Of a stretch of 64,000 bases of DNA, positions 1 through 4,205 are shown one piece after another. Under the pieces are notes generated by a model. It was not told the DNA's origin. It worked only from the letters and a program-made list of their open reading frames with translations, and made no database searches. This DNA comes from Pseudomonas floridensis. GTDB taxonomy: Bacteria > Pseudomonadota > Gammaproteobacteria > Pseudomonadales > Pseudomonadaceae. Every line of letters starts with the position of its first letter. Within the stretch, counting starts at the first letter, position 1. The stretch is from assembly GCF_002087235.1 (NCBI RefSeq), contig NZ_MUIO01000079.1:1-64000 (forward strand), read 5' to 3'. Made by a program: the position numbers and the translations under genes.

Positions 1-189
1 GGTTTATGGATCGCATACGTTCAACGGCCAGCCGATAAGACGACCCAGATCGCGGGCGCTGAACCAAGGCTGGTGTTTGAGTAGGAGGGCTTGAAGCGGG
101 CGGTTGTGGCGGTGGAAGAGGGTGGGGATATGCGCGGACGTCACCGCGTCAAGTTGATGAGCTTGTACCTTGAGTCTGTCACTGAACAT
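1..189 (-). pseudogene. BRO-N domain (phage antirepressor-like) gene, apparently frameshifted, cut by window edge
   Basis: The reading frame starts at ATG 189 behind GAGG and stops at TAA 4-6 after 61 residues. The segment PWFSARDLGRLIGWPLN resembles the start of BRO-N domains, which occur in phage antirepressor-like DNA-binding proteins of Pseudomonas; I recognise it from memory only. Homologues as I recall them continue with N-E-R after GWPLN, and an alternative frame here reads E-R-M-R-S-I-N. The DNA reads TTGAACGTATG where TTGAACGAACGTATG would keep the frame open, so loss of one copy of a 4-bp tandem repeat (GAAC) would explain the early stop. The remainder lies outside the window. It could also be a genuine short protein. 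Confidence 0.5.
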
Positions 190-455
190 GCTGAACCTCT
201 ACGAAGGACTTGGAATAGTGCTAAAGACCAACGTAGAGCGGGCTCAAGAAATCCCAACGGAGCGGCTCGGCATTTCTAAATTTCCGTTCGGTGGAACGGA
301 AAAATTCAGAGTTAATGCTGAAGTCACTGTTTCTACGTTGGGTGTTTCTTAGGCACCGGTGAGTATTATAAAAGCATCATAAAGGATCGGCTGTCAGATT
401 TGCTGAGAAATGAGTGTAAGAAGCCTCTGATTTTAAAAGTTTGATGATTTTCTAA

Positions 456-1586
456 TTAATCGCTTTGTTTAAGGTTCTTTAATTTGCGGTCTGCGATTGA
501 TTCCTTATTGATAATTACCTGTTTCAGTGCTTCGTTTTTCTTTTCGCCTAAGGCACCGTAATGAATTTCTTTATGACATGTTGGGCAAACGGCGGCCACG
601 AATTTTGGATGATCTAGGCCTCCGTCAGATAACCGGTTTACATGATGGGGTTCCAAATAAGCTTGTCCTGCTTTAGTCACAAAAGGGGCCGGGGTTCCAC
701 AACTTTCGCATAACCCTTCTGCGCGCTTTAGGACATAAGCTTTAACATCTTTACTCCGACTATATAGGGTGCGTATGGTTTGCAGCTTATCTTTGTTGAA
801 GTTTGCTATTGTTGCTTCGTAGGCGCGCGCTCGCGAAGCTTCGAATTCGAAGCTTTGGTTGTCTGGTATTAATTTATCTGGTGCGGCTTCTTCATGCTCT
901 AAAAGATGTGATGCGGGAACTAGATTGAATCTAATGATTTTTCTAGTCTCTCCATTTTTATCTGGACCCTCAGCCCAGGAAAGATCCGCGCATACAAACT
1001 CTCCTATATATTTCTGTCCTTTTCTTTTTTCAAGAGTTTTAAAAAGATGGATCGCTCGACCAGTCGCGGCATGCTCGCGAATTGCTAGGTTTCCCCGAGT
1101 TAAAGTCATGTGGCCAACCTGGCCCTCTCCTGTGTATGAGTAAACTCCGCTTTCGTCCATCTCATCCACATAACCATACTGTTCGCCCGACGACCCCGTA
1201 AATAAGAAAATGGCAGGTGACTTATCTGAAGGTGCTATTCCGCTTTGAGAGCTACCTCCAAAGGGATCATGAATTTCAGATCGCCTATCATATATCTCGC
1301 CTTTTACGAACTCAGGTTTTGGTGCGCTCCGTAAATCTATGACCTTAAACCCACGGGCTCGAAGATAGCCGTTCGTCGGCATACCTCGGGTGAAATCTTT
1401 AACCGCCATATCTGTCGCTAGCGATACAATTTCTTTTGCAGGATACGATTTGCCTTCTACTAGGATGGCAAATTTGTGTGATCCGTTGGAATCCCATGCG
1501 GCCCACCCAGGCTGAAGTCTGAATTCTGTGTCGAATTTTCTCAGAGCTCGTTCAATTGCTTTTTTTTCAACCGCGGGGATCGCCAT
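456..1586 (-). CDS. HNH endonuclease with SRA-like domain, ScoMcrA-type (putative type IV restriction)
   Basis: This 376-residue protein has three visible parts. Residues 1-90 form a small head domain with GWAAWDSNG and the phrase KSYPAKEIVSLA, like the N-terminal head of ScoMcrA-family proteins. Residues about 97-230 (EIYDRRSEIHDPFGG, IFLFTG, GYVDEM, YTGEGQVG, HLFKTL, YIGEFVC) match the SRA/YDG-like fold that reads modified bases. Residues about 285-345 are an HNH nuclease with zinc-type cysteine pairs (CESCG, CPTCH) and the core EPHHVNRLSDGG. The expected role is cleavage of DNA carrying modified bases, as a defence against phage or methylated foreign DNA. No methyltransferase partner is visible, which fits type IV systems. 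AAGGA precedes ATG 1586. The gene is clearly more AT-rich than nrdB beside it, suggesting horizontal transfer. The substrate modification cannot be read from sequence. Confidence 0.78.
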   Translation of the reverse strand: MAIPAVEKKAIERALRKFDTEFRLQPGWAAWDSNGSHKFAILVEGKSYPAKEIVSLATDMAVKDFTRGMPTNGYLRARGFKVIDLRSAPKPEFVKGEIYDRRSEIHDPFGGSSQSGIAPSDKSPAIFLFTGSSGEQYGYVDEMDESGVYSYTGEGQVGHMTLTRGNLAIREHAATGRAIHLFKTLEKRKGQKYIGEFVCADLSWAEGPDKNGETRKIIRFNLVPASHLLEHEEAAPDKLIPDNQSFEFEASRARAYEATIANFNKDKLQTIRTLYSRSKDVKAYVLKRAEGLCESCGTPAPFVTKAGQAYLEPHHVNRLSDGGLDHPKFVAAVCPTCHKEIHYGALGEKKNEALKQVIINKESIADRKLKNLKQSD

Positions 1587-1691
1587 TTCGTCGTCCTTGT
1601 AGGAAAAATCTCCTGTGACTGTACGAAATGAGTGAGGCGGATGACTATCACTATTAGCCTTGAGAGCAAAATTTATTTAAGTTTTTTCCAT

Positions 1692-1722
1692 AAAAAAGGT
1701 CGCCTATTGGCGACCTTTTTGT
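1692..1722. terminator. Bidirectional rho-independent terminator after nrdB
   Basis: The stem AAAAAAGGTCGCC is followed by a TATT loop and then GGCGACCTTTTT. Runs of A and T on the two sides let it work on either strand. It lies 21 bp beyond the nrdB stop codon and so ends nrdB transcription, insulating it from the HNH gene. Confidence 0.85.
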
Positions 1723-1743
1723 TAACGAGCTGCCTGTCTAGAA

Positions 1744-2991
1744 TCAATCCCAGCTCAACGCCCCACCTGTCTGATACTCAATAACTCTCGTCTCGAAGAA
1801 GTTCTTCTCTTTCTTCAAGTCCATGATCTCGCTCATCCATGGGAACGGGTTGGTGGTGCCTGGGTACTCTTCCTTCAGACCGATCTGGCTCAGGCGACGG
1901 TTGGCGATGAACTTGAGGTAGTCCTCCATCATCGCTGCGTTCATGCCCAGTACGCCGCGTGGCATGGTGTCACGGGCGTATTCGATTTCCAGTTGGGTGC
2001 CTTGCAGGATCATCTGCGTGGCTTCTTCTTTCATCTCGGCATCCCACAGGTGCGGGTTTTCGATTTTGATCTGGTTGATCACATCGATGCCGAAGTTCAG
2101 GTGCATGGATTCGTCGCGCAGGATGTACTGGAACTGCTCGGCGACGCCGGTCATTTTGTTGCGACGGCCCATGGACAGGATCTGGGTGAAGCCGCAGTAG
2201 AAGAAGATGCCTTCCAGAACGCAGTAGTAGGCGATCAGGTTGCGCAGCAGTTCCTTGTCGGTTTCGACGGTGCCGGTTTCGAACTTCGGATCGGAGATCG
2301 AACGGGTGTACTTCAGGCCCCAGGCGGCTTTCTTCGCGACCGATGGAATCTCGTGGTACATGTTGAAGATCTCGCCTTCATCCATGGCCAGCGATTCGAT
2401 GCAGTACTGGTAAGCGTGGGTGTGGATCGCTTCCTCAAAGGCCTGGCGCAGAATGTACTGGCGGCACTCCGGGTTGGTGATCAGGCGGTAAACGGCCAGG
2501 ACCAGGTTGTTGGCAACCAGCGAGTCGGCGGTGGAGAAGAAGCCCAGGTTGCGCATGACGATACGACGCTCGTCGTCGGTCAGACCTTCCGGGTTTTTCC
2601 AGAGGGCGATGTCGGCGGTCATGTTGACTTCTTGCGGCATCCAGTGGTTTGCGCAACCGTCCAGATACTTCTGCCAGGCCCAGTCGTACTTGAAGGGTAC
2701 GAGCTGGTTCAGGTCGGCGCGGCAGTTGATCATCATCTTTTCGTCAACGGCAACGCGAGCGCTGGCGCCTTCGAGTTCGGCCAGGCCTTCGGCGACGTCC
2801 AGTGCGTCCAGCGCTTTCTTGGCGCGGATCAGGGCTGCGGAGTCGTTGGCGGTAACGGCACGTGCTTCCTGGGCCGCTGCGCCACCGGCGCTGTCGAGGC
2901 GGTCCATGTTGGCTTCGTTGGCGTGACCGGCGTTGGCCGCTTTGGCAACTACTTCGCCGTCTTCTTTATCGAATTCGTCCCAGCTCAGCAT
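1744..2991 (-). CDS. nrdB: Ribonucleoside-diphosphate reductase class Ia, beta subunit
   Basis: NrdB (415 residues) holds the diiron-tyrosyl radical that drives reduction of ribonucleotides by NrdA in the cytoplasm. Residues about 1-85 are an Ala-rich extension absent from the E. coli protein. The diiron ligands and radical site can be aligned with the E. coli enzyme: Asp156 in STADSLV, Glu187 and His190 in FEEAIH, Tyr194 in HAYQY (equivalent to Tyr122), then Glu in VLEGIFF and Glu/His in RDESMH. The C-terminal tail ends in TGGALSWD, the segment that docks on NrdA. It is transcribed separately from nrdA, with about 1.46 kb and a broken toxin-antitoxin module between them, and has its own likely promoter near 3265. 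Confidence 0.97.
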
Positions 2992-3264
2992 GGTGATGAG
3001 GCTCCCGCTTGAGGACCGCCGTAGCGATCTTGGTTAGATTTTAAGGTGTGAAGTGCCCACGTCGTCGGGTCGAAAACGCAGGTACTGAAATTGAGGCTGT
3101 CTTTGATGCTGCGATTGACCGGTTATGAACGTGTCGGTCGTCCGCTCGGTTTGCTGCCGTGGCAATGCCCTACAGGCGAGCAAAGCGAGTGATCTGGGTT
3201 GCTTTGAGGTGATGCAATTTTGCTGGTGCAAATTGTCATTCGAGTACCCTGAAGCGAGCGCGGG

Positions 3265-3625: not shown

Positions 3626-4035
3626 TCAGTTCTCAGGCGAGATAGGTTTTCCAATGCAGCGTTCGAATACATGGATAAGCGCGCCGTATTCGCAATGTAC
3701 GGCATCGATATTCGCTTGCGTCCACTCCTCGGCCTCGACTGCCCACCAGCTAATGTCGTAGCCAACGTTCATGATGAGATGTTCAAACAGAACTCGTTGA
3801 GCTCTGCCGTTTTCTTCCCTGAAAGGGTGAATGACATTGAGGTCACCGAATGCCTCGGCGCTGGCTTTCACAAGCTCATCCCGTTCCAGCTCTTGAAACC
3901 AGTGTGCTTTGGCAAGAGACGCAAATAGTTTTGTAGCTTCAGGCTCAATGCGAGTCGTCGTGCAAAAACGGGTGTCGCCTTTGGATAGGTCTACCGTGCG
4001 CAGCTCCCCTGACCAGCCCCGTATTTATCGAGCAT
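3626..4035 (-). pseudogene. fic: Fic-family AMP-transferase toxin, internal deletion and frameshift
   Basis: The gene starts at ATG 4035, which overlaps the antitoxin stop as TGATG. It reads MLDKYGAGQG and then runs out of frame to a TAG. In the neighbouring frame a Fic domain resumes at GELRTVDLSKGDTRF (GAG at 4006) and stays open to the stop at 3626. As I recall the family, about 60 residues normally lie between the two segments, so an internal out-of-frame deletion has removed the early helices and flap region. The catalytic motif reads HPFREENGRAQR where the family has HPFxxGNGRxxR, so a Gly is Glu. Fic proteins transfer AMP to targets such as DNA gyrase and topoisomerase IV. The sequence indicates this one is dead. 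Confidence 0.8.
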
Positions 4036-4205
4036 CAGGCCTGTTTGTTAAGGTAGGTTTTTAACAGCTCTTCTCGGGTTGGAAGAGGGCGTTCGACATC
4101 GAGTGGCGTGCTGTCGTAGCCTTCCAAGCGCAAGCTGGCTGCATAATTGGATCGGCGTACTTTTGCAAAGTGAGCTTTTTTTGCCTGAACCGAGAGCGAC
4201 GGCAT
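4035..4205 (-). CDS. YhfG/FicA-type antitoxin of a Fic module
   Basis: This 56-residue protein has the compact layout of the E. coli YhfG/FicA antitoxin: a basic helix (KVRRSNYAAS), the conserved RLEG and a C-terminal helix TREELLKTYLN. In the class I Fic modules the antitoxin carries the inhibitory helix that blocks ATP binding by the toxin. The frame is open further upstream, but ATG 4205 is the start that gives the family length; its ribosome binding site is weak (AGAG). The stop overlaps the start of the fic remnant. The antitoxin is intact while its toxin is broken, so it is probably a relic on its way out. Confidence 0.72.
   Translation of the reverse strand: MPSLSVQAKKAHFAKVRRSNYAASLRLEGYDSTPLDVERPLPTREELLKTYLNKQA

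Follow-up and report, generated by a model that had tools for sequence, protein, structure and literature searches.

The window (the whole stretch of DNA analysed, 64,000 nucleotides from the start of a Pseudomonas floridensis contig) begins with the 5' end of a BRO-N gene, followed by the gene of interest, P0001, and by nrdB and nrdA (Table 1). The P0001 open reading frame runs without interruption from an ATG at 1586 to a stop codon at 456-458, encodes 376 amino acids, and was the sole match at E ≤ 0.001 in its own genome. Its start lies about 158 bases past the stop codon of nrdB, both genes being on the same strand, and its composition, previously described as AT-richer than that of the flanking core genes, indeed differs from theirs (GC 42-46% across P0001 vs 55-62% across nrdB and nrdA). 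Sub-threshold Rfam matches align with the terminator-like hairpin between the two genes. The scan for sigma-70 promoters, whose output does not include this hairpin, returned 0 sites on either strand of positions 1-3100, where shuffled sequence gave a mean of 2.2. Between nrdA and nrdB (3626-4205) lie a short ORF for a Fic C-terminus (3626-3871), which appears shortened relative to longer copies in other loci, and an antitoxin ORF (4038-4205) that we take to be YhfG-like.

Table 1. Coordinates of the features discussed, in the window and in related loci.
Feature	Position	Strand	Basis
BRO-N gene, 5' end at contig edge; recurrent slot neighbour	4..189	minus	Pfam Bro-N in homologue L094
Leader hairpin upstream of BRO-N	163..272	minus	arms TTGGGATTTCTT and CTCTACG...CGTAGAG
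P0001, head-SRA-HNH endonuclease gene, 376 aa	456..1586	minus	ORF, profile and structure evidence
HNH domain (268-351); C293/C296/C334/C337 for zinc; H315/H338 catalytic; aromatic F329 at the middle Asn position	534..785	minus	roles by alignment
SRA domain, residues 93-230; pocket Y139, D141, Y151, T152, G153	897..1310	minus	structure and alignment
Head domain at the N-terminus (modelled as 1-92; ends ~90)	1311..1586	minus	head model, Foldseek, VIA
AAGGA, Shine-Dalgarno-like, 7 bases before the P0001 ATG	1594..1598	minus	read by eye
A/T-tailed hairpin resembling a terminator, in the nrdB-P0001 gap	1692..1720		by eye
nrdB, core gene marking the hotspot	1744..2991	minus	ORF call and nrdB searches
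sRNA-Xcc1	L065 13859-13943; L063 5705-5790; L114 7079-7161; L128 4486-4569; L062 74-159		Rfam RF02221
Distant headless relatives near a strong C5-methyltransferase	L136 7028-7870 (G071); G220:C1:116573-117412		

The first-pass annotation had read P0001 as a head-SRA-HNH protein, an architecture borne out by matches to the SRA, HNH and ScoMcrA-head folds. Pfam placed HNH at residues 293-342, narrowly above its cutoff (21.6 vs 21.4 bits), and SAD_SRA at residues 96-223, under its cutoff (19.9 vs 30.7 bits, E = 6.6e-4); among 29 family members, SAD_SRA was found at E ≤ 0.01 in 8 (best 3.8e-7) and HNH in 28. Sequence searches matched EcoKMcrA (6ghc) to the HNH domain (residues 268-351, E = 3.3e-18; profile match 241-363) and ScoMcrA to SRA and HNH together (E = 1.6e-16). 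A reading of P0001 as IscB was discarded, as the NCBIfam guided_IscB model covered the HNH part only (residues 280-358) and scored 28.7 bits where its cutoff is 175. The AlphaFold model of the full protein, made from 17 sequences, was of middling quality (mean pLDDT 73.8, pTM 0.53), and with it Foldseek returned ScoMcrA as the top entry (1.2e-17), together with TagI (6.6e-9) and the SRA domain of SUVH5 (1.2e-6). By VIA-align, the P0001 SRA domain was superposed on ScoMcrA 5zmn_A (Z 13.4, 132 aligned, rmsd 2.7), SUVH5 3q0d (Z 12.8) and TagI 6ghs (Z 11.7, 133 aligned, rmsd 3.5). The head, modelled alone (pLDDT 80.3), had the ScoMcrA head as its sole clear match (5zmm_B: VIA Z 9.4, 74 aligned, rmsd 3.6; Foldseek E = 2.4e-3), with the next entry at Z 2.7. 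The sulfur-binding domain of ScoMcrA, given as residues 91-260 (PMC6224610, excerpt), has no counterpart in P0001: the aligned ScoMcrA ranges are 4-98 for the head and 257-403 for the SRA domain, and with the P0001 head ending near residue 90 and its SRA domain starting near 93 there is no room for it. The structural comparison with SRA and sulfur-binding domains that the annotation had proposed accordingly gave a clear SRA match and no sulfur-binding domain. Also missing from P0001 is the NEco specificity domain with which EcoKMcrA reads its mark, the N-terminal part of P0001 consisting of head and SRA.

Residue conservation was counted over 29 aligned family members, P0001 included. The pocket residues Y139, D141, Y151, T152 and G153, along with G155, were invariant (29/29). 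TagI uses Y55, D58 and Y67, with T68 nearby (PMC6212794, excerpt); because the Asp of P0001 stands at Tyr+2 instead of the Tyr+3 of TagI, we infer the placement of D141 in the pocket. In the HNH domain, C293, C296, C337, H315 and H338 were kept in 28/29 members and C334 in 29/29, the exception being the truncated L102. The position of the middle HNH Asn (329) held Tyr in 22 members, Phe in 7 and Asn in none; in TagI this Asn is described as frequently conserved and non-catalytic, yet essential according to conservation and mutagenesis (PMC6212794, excerpt). Of the structural features, it is chiefly the lost Asn that calls for caution over the activity of P0001. A second HNH family, the 237-aa type discussed below, keeps it (N202, invariant in 9/9 aligned members, with the equivalence based on our reading of the alignment).

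We searched for relatives in a genus sample of 398 Pseudomonas genomes, the home genome included. Full-length or near-full-length relatives were present in 30 genomes and, the home copy aside, were 48-66% identical to P0001. Damaged copies among these carriers were those of G174 (in-frame TAG), G386 (no head), G051 (HNH cut) and G384, which ends after about residue 285, where a DDE transposase ORF begins. Not counted among the 30 are G034 and G316, whose partial or broken copies both adjoin nrdB, G244 with another such copy, and seven genomes with a distant headless relative (29-34% identity). Rather than being conserved at this site in all relatives, a pattern that the annotation had named as speaking against its reading, the gene lay within 6 kb downstream of nrdB in 14 of the 30 carriers, 4 times in the direction of nrdB, as in P0001, and 10 times convergent. 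For 11 carriers the nrdB coordinate was unlisted, and no nrdB match was found within 8 kb on each side of their genes (less at contig ends). A tRNA-Pro(ggg) gene is close to six of the relatives (L106-L108 and L111-L113), with a merR-like ORF alongside in the two that were read (L106 and L113), and an ORF near the relative in Pseudomonas sp. JUb42 (L031 9816-10697) matches the PADLOC candidate PDC-S42 (2.1e-38).

In a midpoint-rooted tree of 40 proteins (the truncated or headless L102, L124, L156 and L157 excluded, L094 not in the input), P0001 and the JUb42 protein (L031, beside nrdB) grouped with rows from IMG/VR, and a well-supported split parted them from the remaining ten rows located at nrdB. 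On this tree 3 changes are needed for the label "nrdB", and because well-supported branches force at least 2 of them, P0001-type genes probably entered the nrdB slot more than once, a conclusion weakened by the long branches of P0001 and L031. A family-profile search of IMG/VR yielded 21 loci, of which 20 had 47-56% identity and the last matched weakly and in the HNH part only; an integrase-like ORF was present in 5 of the 6 loci read (L144, L147, L149, L153 and L156, not L150), and Pfam Phage_integrase was confirmed in all four tested (L144, L147, L153 and L156). Ten GenBank phage records contained P0001 relatives, all below 60% identity and none covering 80% of the query, and 77 plasmid records did so, again all below 60% identity, with one covering 80%. 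The idea that this particular copy came from a phage or a plasmid was set aside, as patterns for close relatives gave no IMG/VR relative.

The small defence hotspot suggested next to nrdB turned out to be larger than proposed, with 14 of the 30 relatives and most of the testable HNH-only matches located there. The HNH-only matches, mostly members of a second HNH family, lay within 10 kb of nrdB in 55 of 64 testable cases, all downstream, where random placement would put about 0.16% (101 of the 102 HNH-only matches were entered, G134 being left out with its nrdB coordinate unlisted, and 64 had such a coordinate). The second family comprises ORFs of 237-252 aa with a conserved N-terminal domain (L066, L070, L075, L077, L081, L082, L084, L086, L087, L099 and L101), and the one member tested matched PADLOC mREase_IV (6.1e-31) and also PDC-S36. 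Other cargo included cytosine-methyltransferase matches (8 of 77 ORFs) and Vsr-like ORFs (cluster 16) in 9 sequences, of which the nrdB map includes 7, the one tested being Vsr (Pfam 2.9e-28); one gene (cluster 4) often formed the far edge of the slot. The 3' end of nrdB is partially duplicated downstream of intact nrdB in L064 (7068-7371, residues 315-415) and L065 (5931-6251, residues 309-415), and these are possible scars of cargo insertion via recombination in nrdB. A second full nrdB with other neighbours, including a shared large ORF (cluster 74), was seen in L137, L138 and L139 (G017, G048 and G032), and G052 has two nrdB matches. Among the open-licence papers covered by our literature search, none on the nrdB slot was found.

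If P0001 cuts 5mC DNA, its carriers would be expected to be without C5-methyltransferases. PF00145 was therefore searched in the same 398 genomes, with counts that reflect gene presence, not methylation, and matches at E ≤ 1e-40 were termed strong, a cutoff chosen after viewing the table. A strong C5-methyltransferase was present in 1 of 30 carriers compared to 125 of 368 other genomes (P = 1.5e-4), and the single case, G384 (2.7e-81), is a carrier whose nuclease gene has its HNH cut off. With G384 not counted as a carrier, the comparison became 0/29 vs 126/369 (Fisher P = 1.3e-5), and with undamaged carriers only, 0/26 vs 126/372 (P = 4.3e-5). Stratification by nrdB similarity, a coarse stand-in for the species tree as a control for ancestry, left the depletion in place (seven bins, 366 of the 398 genomes with a usable nrdB row, G384 counted as a carrier, permutation P = 1e-4). 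At a cutoff of 1e-10 the contrast was weaker (8/29 vs 199/369, P = 0.007; with G384 included 9/30 vs 198/368, P = 0.014). The home genome itself holds two weaker PF00145 genes, both above the Pfam cutoff, namely a 471-aa ORF and a 301-aa ORF that, from its GGFPCQ, ENS and QRDR motifs, looks like a real phage-type methyltransferase. None of the three genomes with partial or broken relatives (G034, G316 and G244) had PF00145 at E ≤ 1e-40.

The 16 carriers whose gene was not shown at nrdB likewise had 0 strong C5-methyltransferases (P = 0.002), which rules out competition for the slot as the cause of the avoidance. The N6-adenine methyltransferase family PF02384 was not depleted (16/30 carriers vs 179/368 others, P = 0.71), ruling out a general loss of restriction-modification systems in carriers. 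As a further control, genomes with the 237-aa-type HNH protein, which has no SRA domain, showed no depletion either, a strong C5-methyltransferase being present in 32/91 cases vs 94/307 (91 of 99 genomes; G042, G166, G180, G281, G301, G306, G320 and G390 were excluded as unlike in type or place). Of the 51 genomes with a strong C5-methyltransferase and both coordinates (from 82 typed places in 77 genomes of the longer PF00145 list), 16 had the methyltransferase no more than 15 kb from nrdB and always on its downstream side, and in G183 and G305 such a gene shares the slot with a 237-aa-type HNH gene; the 237-aa family therefore tolerates 5mC writers. Two of the seven distant headless relatives (G071 and G220) coexist with a strong C5-methyltransferase encoded on their own contig at a distance of about 10 kb, perhaps in an island where the two are reconciled. 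When all seven were counted as carriers the depletion persisted (3/37 vs 123/361, P = 7e-4), while the seven alone, few as they are, showed no avoidance (2/7 vs 123/361, P = 1). The avoidance is therefore either confined to the head-bearing subfamily or not absolute.

Together, the absent sulfur-binding domain and the avoidance of strong C5-methyltransferases point to 5mC or 5hmC, and not phosphorothioate, as the probable mark, which narrows the choice that the first-pass annotation had left among methylcytosine, hydroxymethylcytosine and phosphorothioate. From the domains, the conserved pocket, the location in the slot and the C5-methyltransferase avoidance, we consider P0001 likely to be a solitary type IV enzyme, as the annotation had held, that flips 5mC or 5hmC with its SRA domain and cuts nearby. 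P0001 would have entered the genome as slot cargo on the 3' side of nrdB. The flipped 5-methyl- or 5-hydroxymethylcytosine would sit in a pocket with Y139 and Y151 as its walls, D141 would read the cytosine edge, and the HNH domains at the C-terminus, forming a dimer like those of TagI and ScoMcrA, would nick or cut nearby, with the head as a putative accessory module contacting DNA or protein. Incoming 5mC or 5hmC DNA from a phage, a plasmid or a restriction-modification system would be destroyed in the cell, so that no stable sharing of the cell with a strongly active C5-methyltransferase would be expected. There is precedent in ScoMcrA, which cuts 5mC/5hmC DNA (PMC7461809, excerpt), and in the SRA-HNH enzymes TagI, ScoA3IV and TbiR51I, which do the same (PMC6212794, excerpt).

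We regard it as unlikely that the target is instead a bulkier or different modified base, such as glucosyl-5hmC or another phage hypermodification, with 5mC avoidance as a by-product. SRA domains of the PvuRts1I group do prefer glucosylated 5hmC, and several P0001 relatives adjoin phage integrases, so superinfecting modified phages could be the target; however, the P0001 segment YTGEG (151-155) resembles Y67-T68...G71 of TagI, which was modelled to clash with glucose (PMC6212794, excerpt, for both enzymes), and the avoidance of strong C5-methyltransferases is the more direct argument. Similarly improbable is a family of damaged or non-cutting HNH proteins serving as modification readers, as the Tyr or Phe at 329 in 29/29 members might suggest in light of the essential TagI Asn: the two His and the four Cys have all been retained by 28/28 members that still possess the HNH domain, and the one carrier of 30 with a strong C5-methyltransferase is one that has lost its HNH, as expected if the HNH does harm. 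Dependence on phosphorothioate, as in the phosphorothioate function of ScoMcrA, would fit ScoMcrA being the best overall structural match, but without the sulfur-binding domain it is very hard to credit. HNH genes can sit beside phage nrd genes, yet a homing-like nuclease of the nrd locus is also a most improbable reading of P0001, for although two HNH families are strongly linked to nrdB and partial nrdB 3' copies exist in L064 and L065, the protein has an SRA domain, its carriers avoid C5-methyltransferases, and 16 of the 30 genes are not shown beside nrdB, with relatives also found next to integrase genes of phages or close to tRNA-Pro.

Returning to P0001 as a type IV enzyme, we offer, as a tentative proposal that may well prove wrong in part or whole, that the 3' flank of nrdB in Pseudomonas serves as a permanent site for nucleases, into which two McrA-type HNH families, unrelated to each other, have been inserted several times by independent events. 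There, 5mC writers (Dcm-like methyltransferases, Vsr) and the 5mC-cutting head-SRA-HNH enzyme would take each other's place and would not both stay intact in one genome, and the enzyme would guard the whole genome against restriction-modification systems that write 5mC. Homologous recombination within nrdB would swap the slot contents and leave nrdB 3' fragments as scars.

Of the characterised enzymes, Streptomyces coelicolor ScoMcrA (5zmm/5zmn) shares with P0001 the order of head, SRA and HNH, the four zinc Cys and the two His, and an Asp two residues after the Tyr that aligns with D141. It differs in having a sulfur-binding domain and a middle HNH Asn (N522 by alignment) where the P0001 family has Tyr or Phe. 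The YTG segment of the P0001 pocket is UHRF1-like. In ScoMcrA, the residues that contact 5mC are described as not conserved (PMC6224610, excerpt). TagI, ScoA3IV and TbiR51I resemble P0001 in having SRA followed by HNH and the Tyr/Asp/Tyr-Thr pattern of the pocket; in contrast to TagI, P0001 has an additional N-terminal head, the Asp at Tyr+2 rather than +3, CxxC in place of CxxD and no middle HNH Asn (PMC6212794, excerpt). The slot is comparable to cDHS1 and cDHS2 of P. aeruginosa in its core-gene flanks, changing defence cargo and, for cDHS1, lower GC, and the merR/tRNA-Pro site of the six relatives appears to resemble the merR edge of cDHS1; the excerpt of that study does not name the nrdB slot (PMC10250203). 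Type IV enzymes and methyltransferases that exclude or silence each other are described for Mrr vs StyLTI and PcaII vs PcaI (PMC8989522, excerpt), pairs that involve another nuclease and other methyltransferases, the evidence for P0001 being genomic only. Already known, then, are SRA-HNH cutters of 5mC/5hmC DNA, the ScoMcrA order of head, sulfur-binding domain, SRA and HNH, and antagonism between type IV enzymes and methyltransferases; what differs here is a head-SRA-HNH protein without the sulfur-binding domain, the lost Asn, C5-methyltransferase avoidance across a genus sample, and the nrdB slot. Genome content yields a testable assignment of the DNA mark for an uncharacterised head-SRA-HNH subfamily and presents a natural, genus-wide case of a methylation writer in conflict with a methylation-cutting enzyme, and the nrdB-flanked slot of Pseudomonas can be mined for new defence systems.

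On its other side, P0001 is adjoined by a gene previously called a broken BRO-N; the neighbour is indeed BRO-N, but the break rests on the contig edge. The ORF runs into base 1 of the contig (C265) and its frame departs from those of its relatives within the last ~35 bases, and because the shift sits at the edge, a genuine break is indistinguishable from a contig-end error. BRO-N genes of at least 70 aa were called in 27 of 82 mapped sequences. The pattern of the leader hairpin had 14 sites in 14 sequences, the window included, of which the site in L085 looks like chance. The small RNA sRNA-Xcc1 (RF02221) was detected in 5 of 13 loci scanned (62.7-69.8 bits, cutoff 53) and in 4 of the 5 either overlapped the start of BRO-N or immediately preceded it, the L062 sequence being too short to show BRO-N. 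In Xanthomonas, sRNA-Xcc1 is reported upstream of symE within integron cassettes (PMC12444791, excerpt); a reading of the leader hairpin as an integron attC, prompted by this RNA, was dropped, as no copies were seen bounding the cargo at both ends. BRO-N and the small RNA perhaps form a toxin-antitoxin-like module, and the combination of BRO-N with sRNA-Xcc1 merits study.
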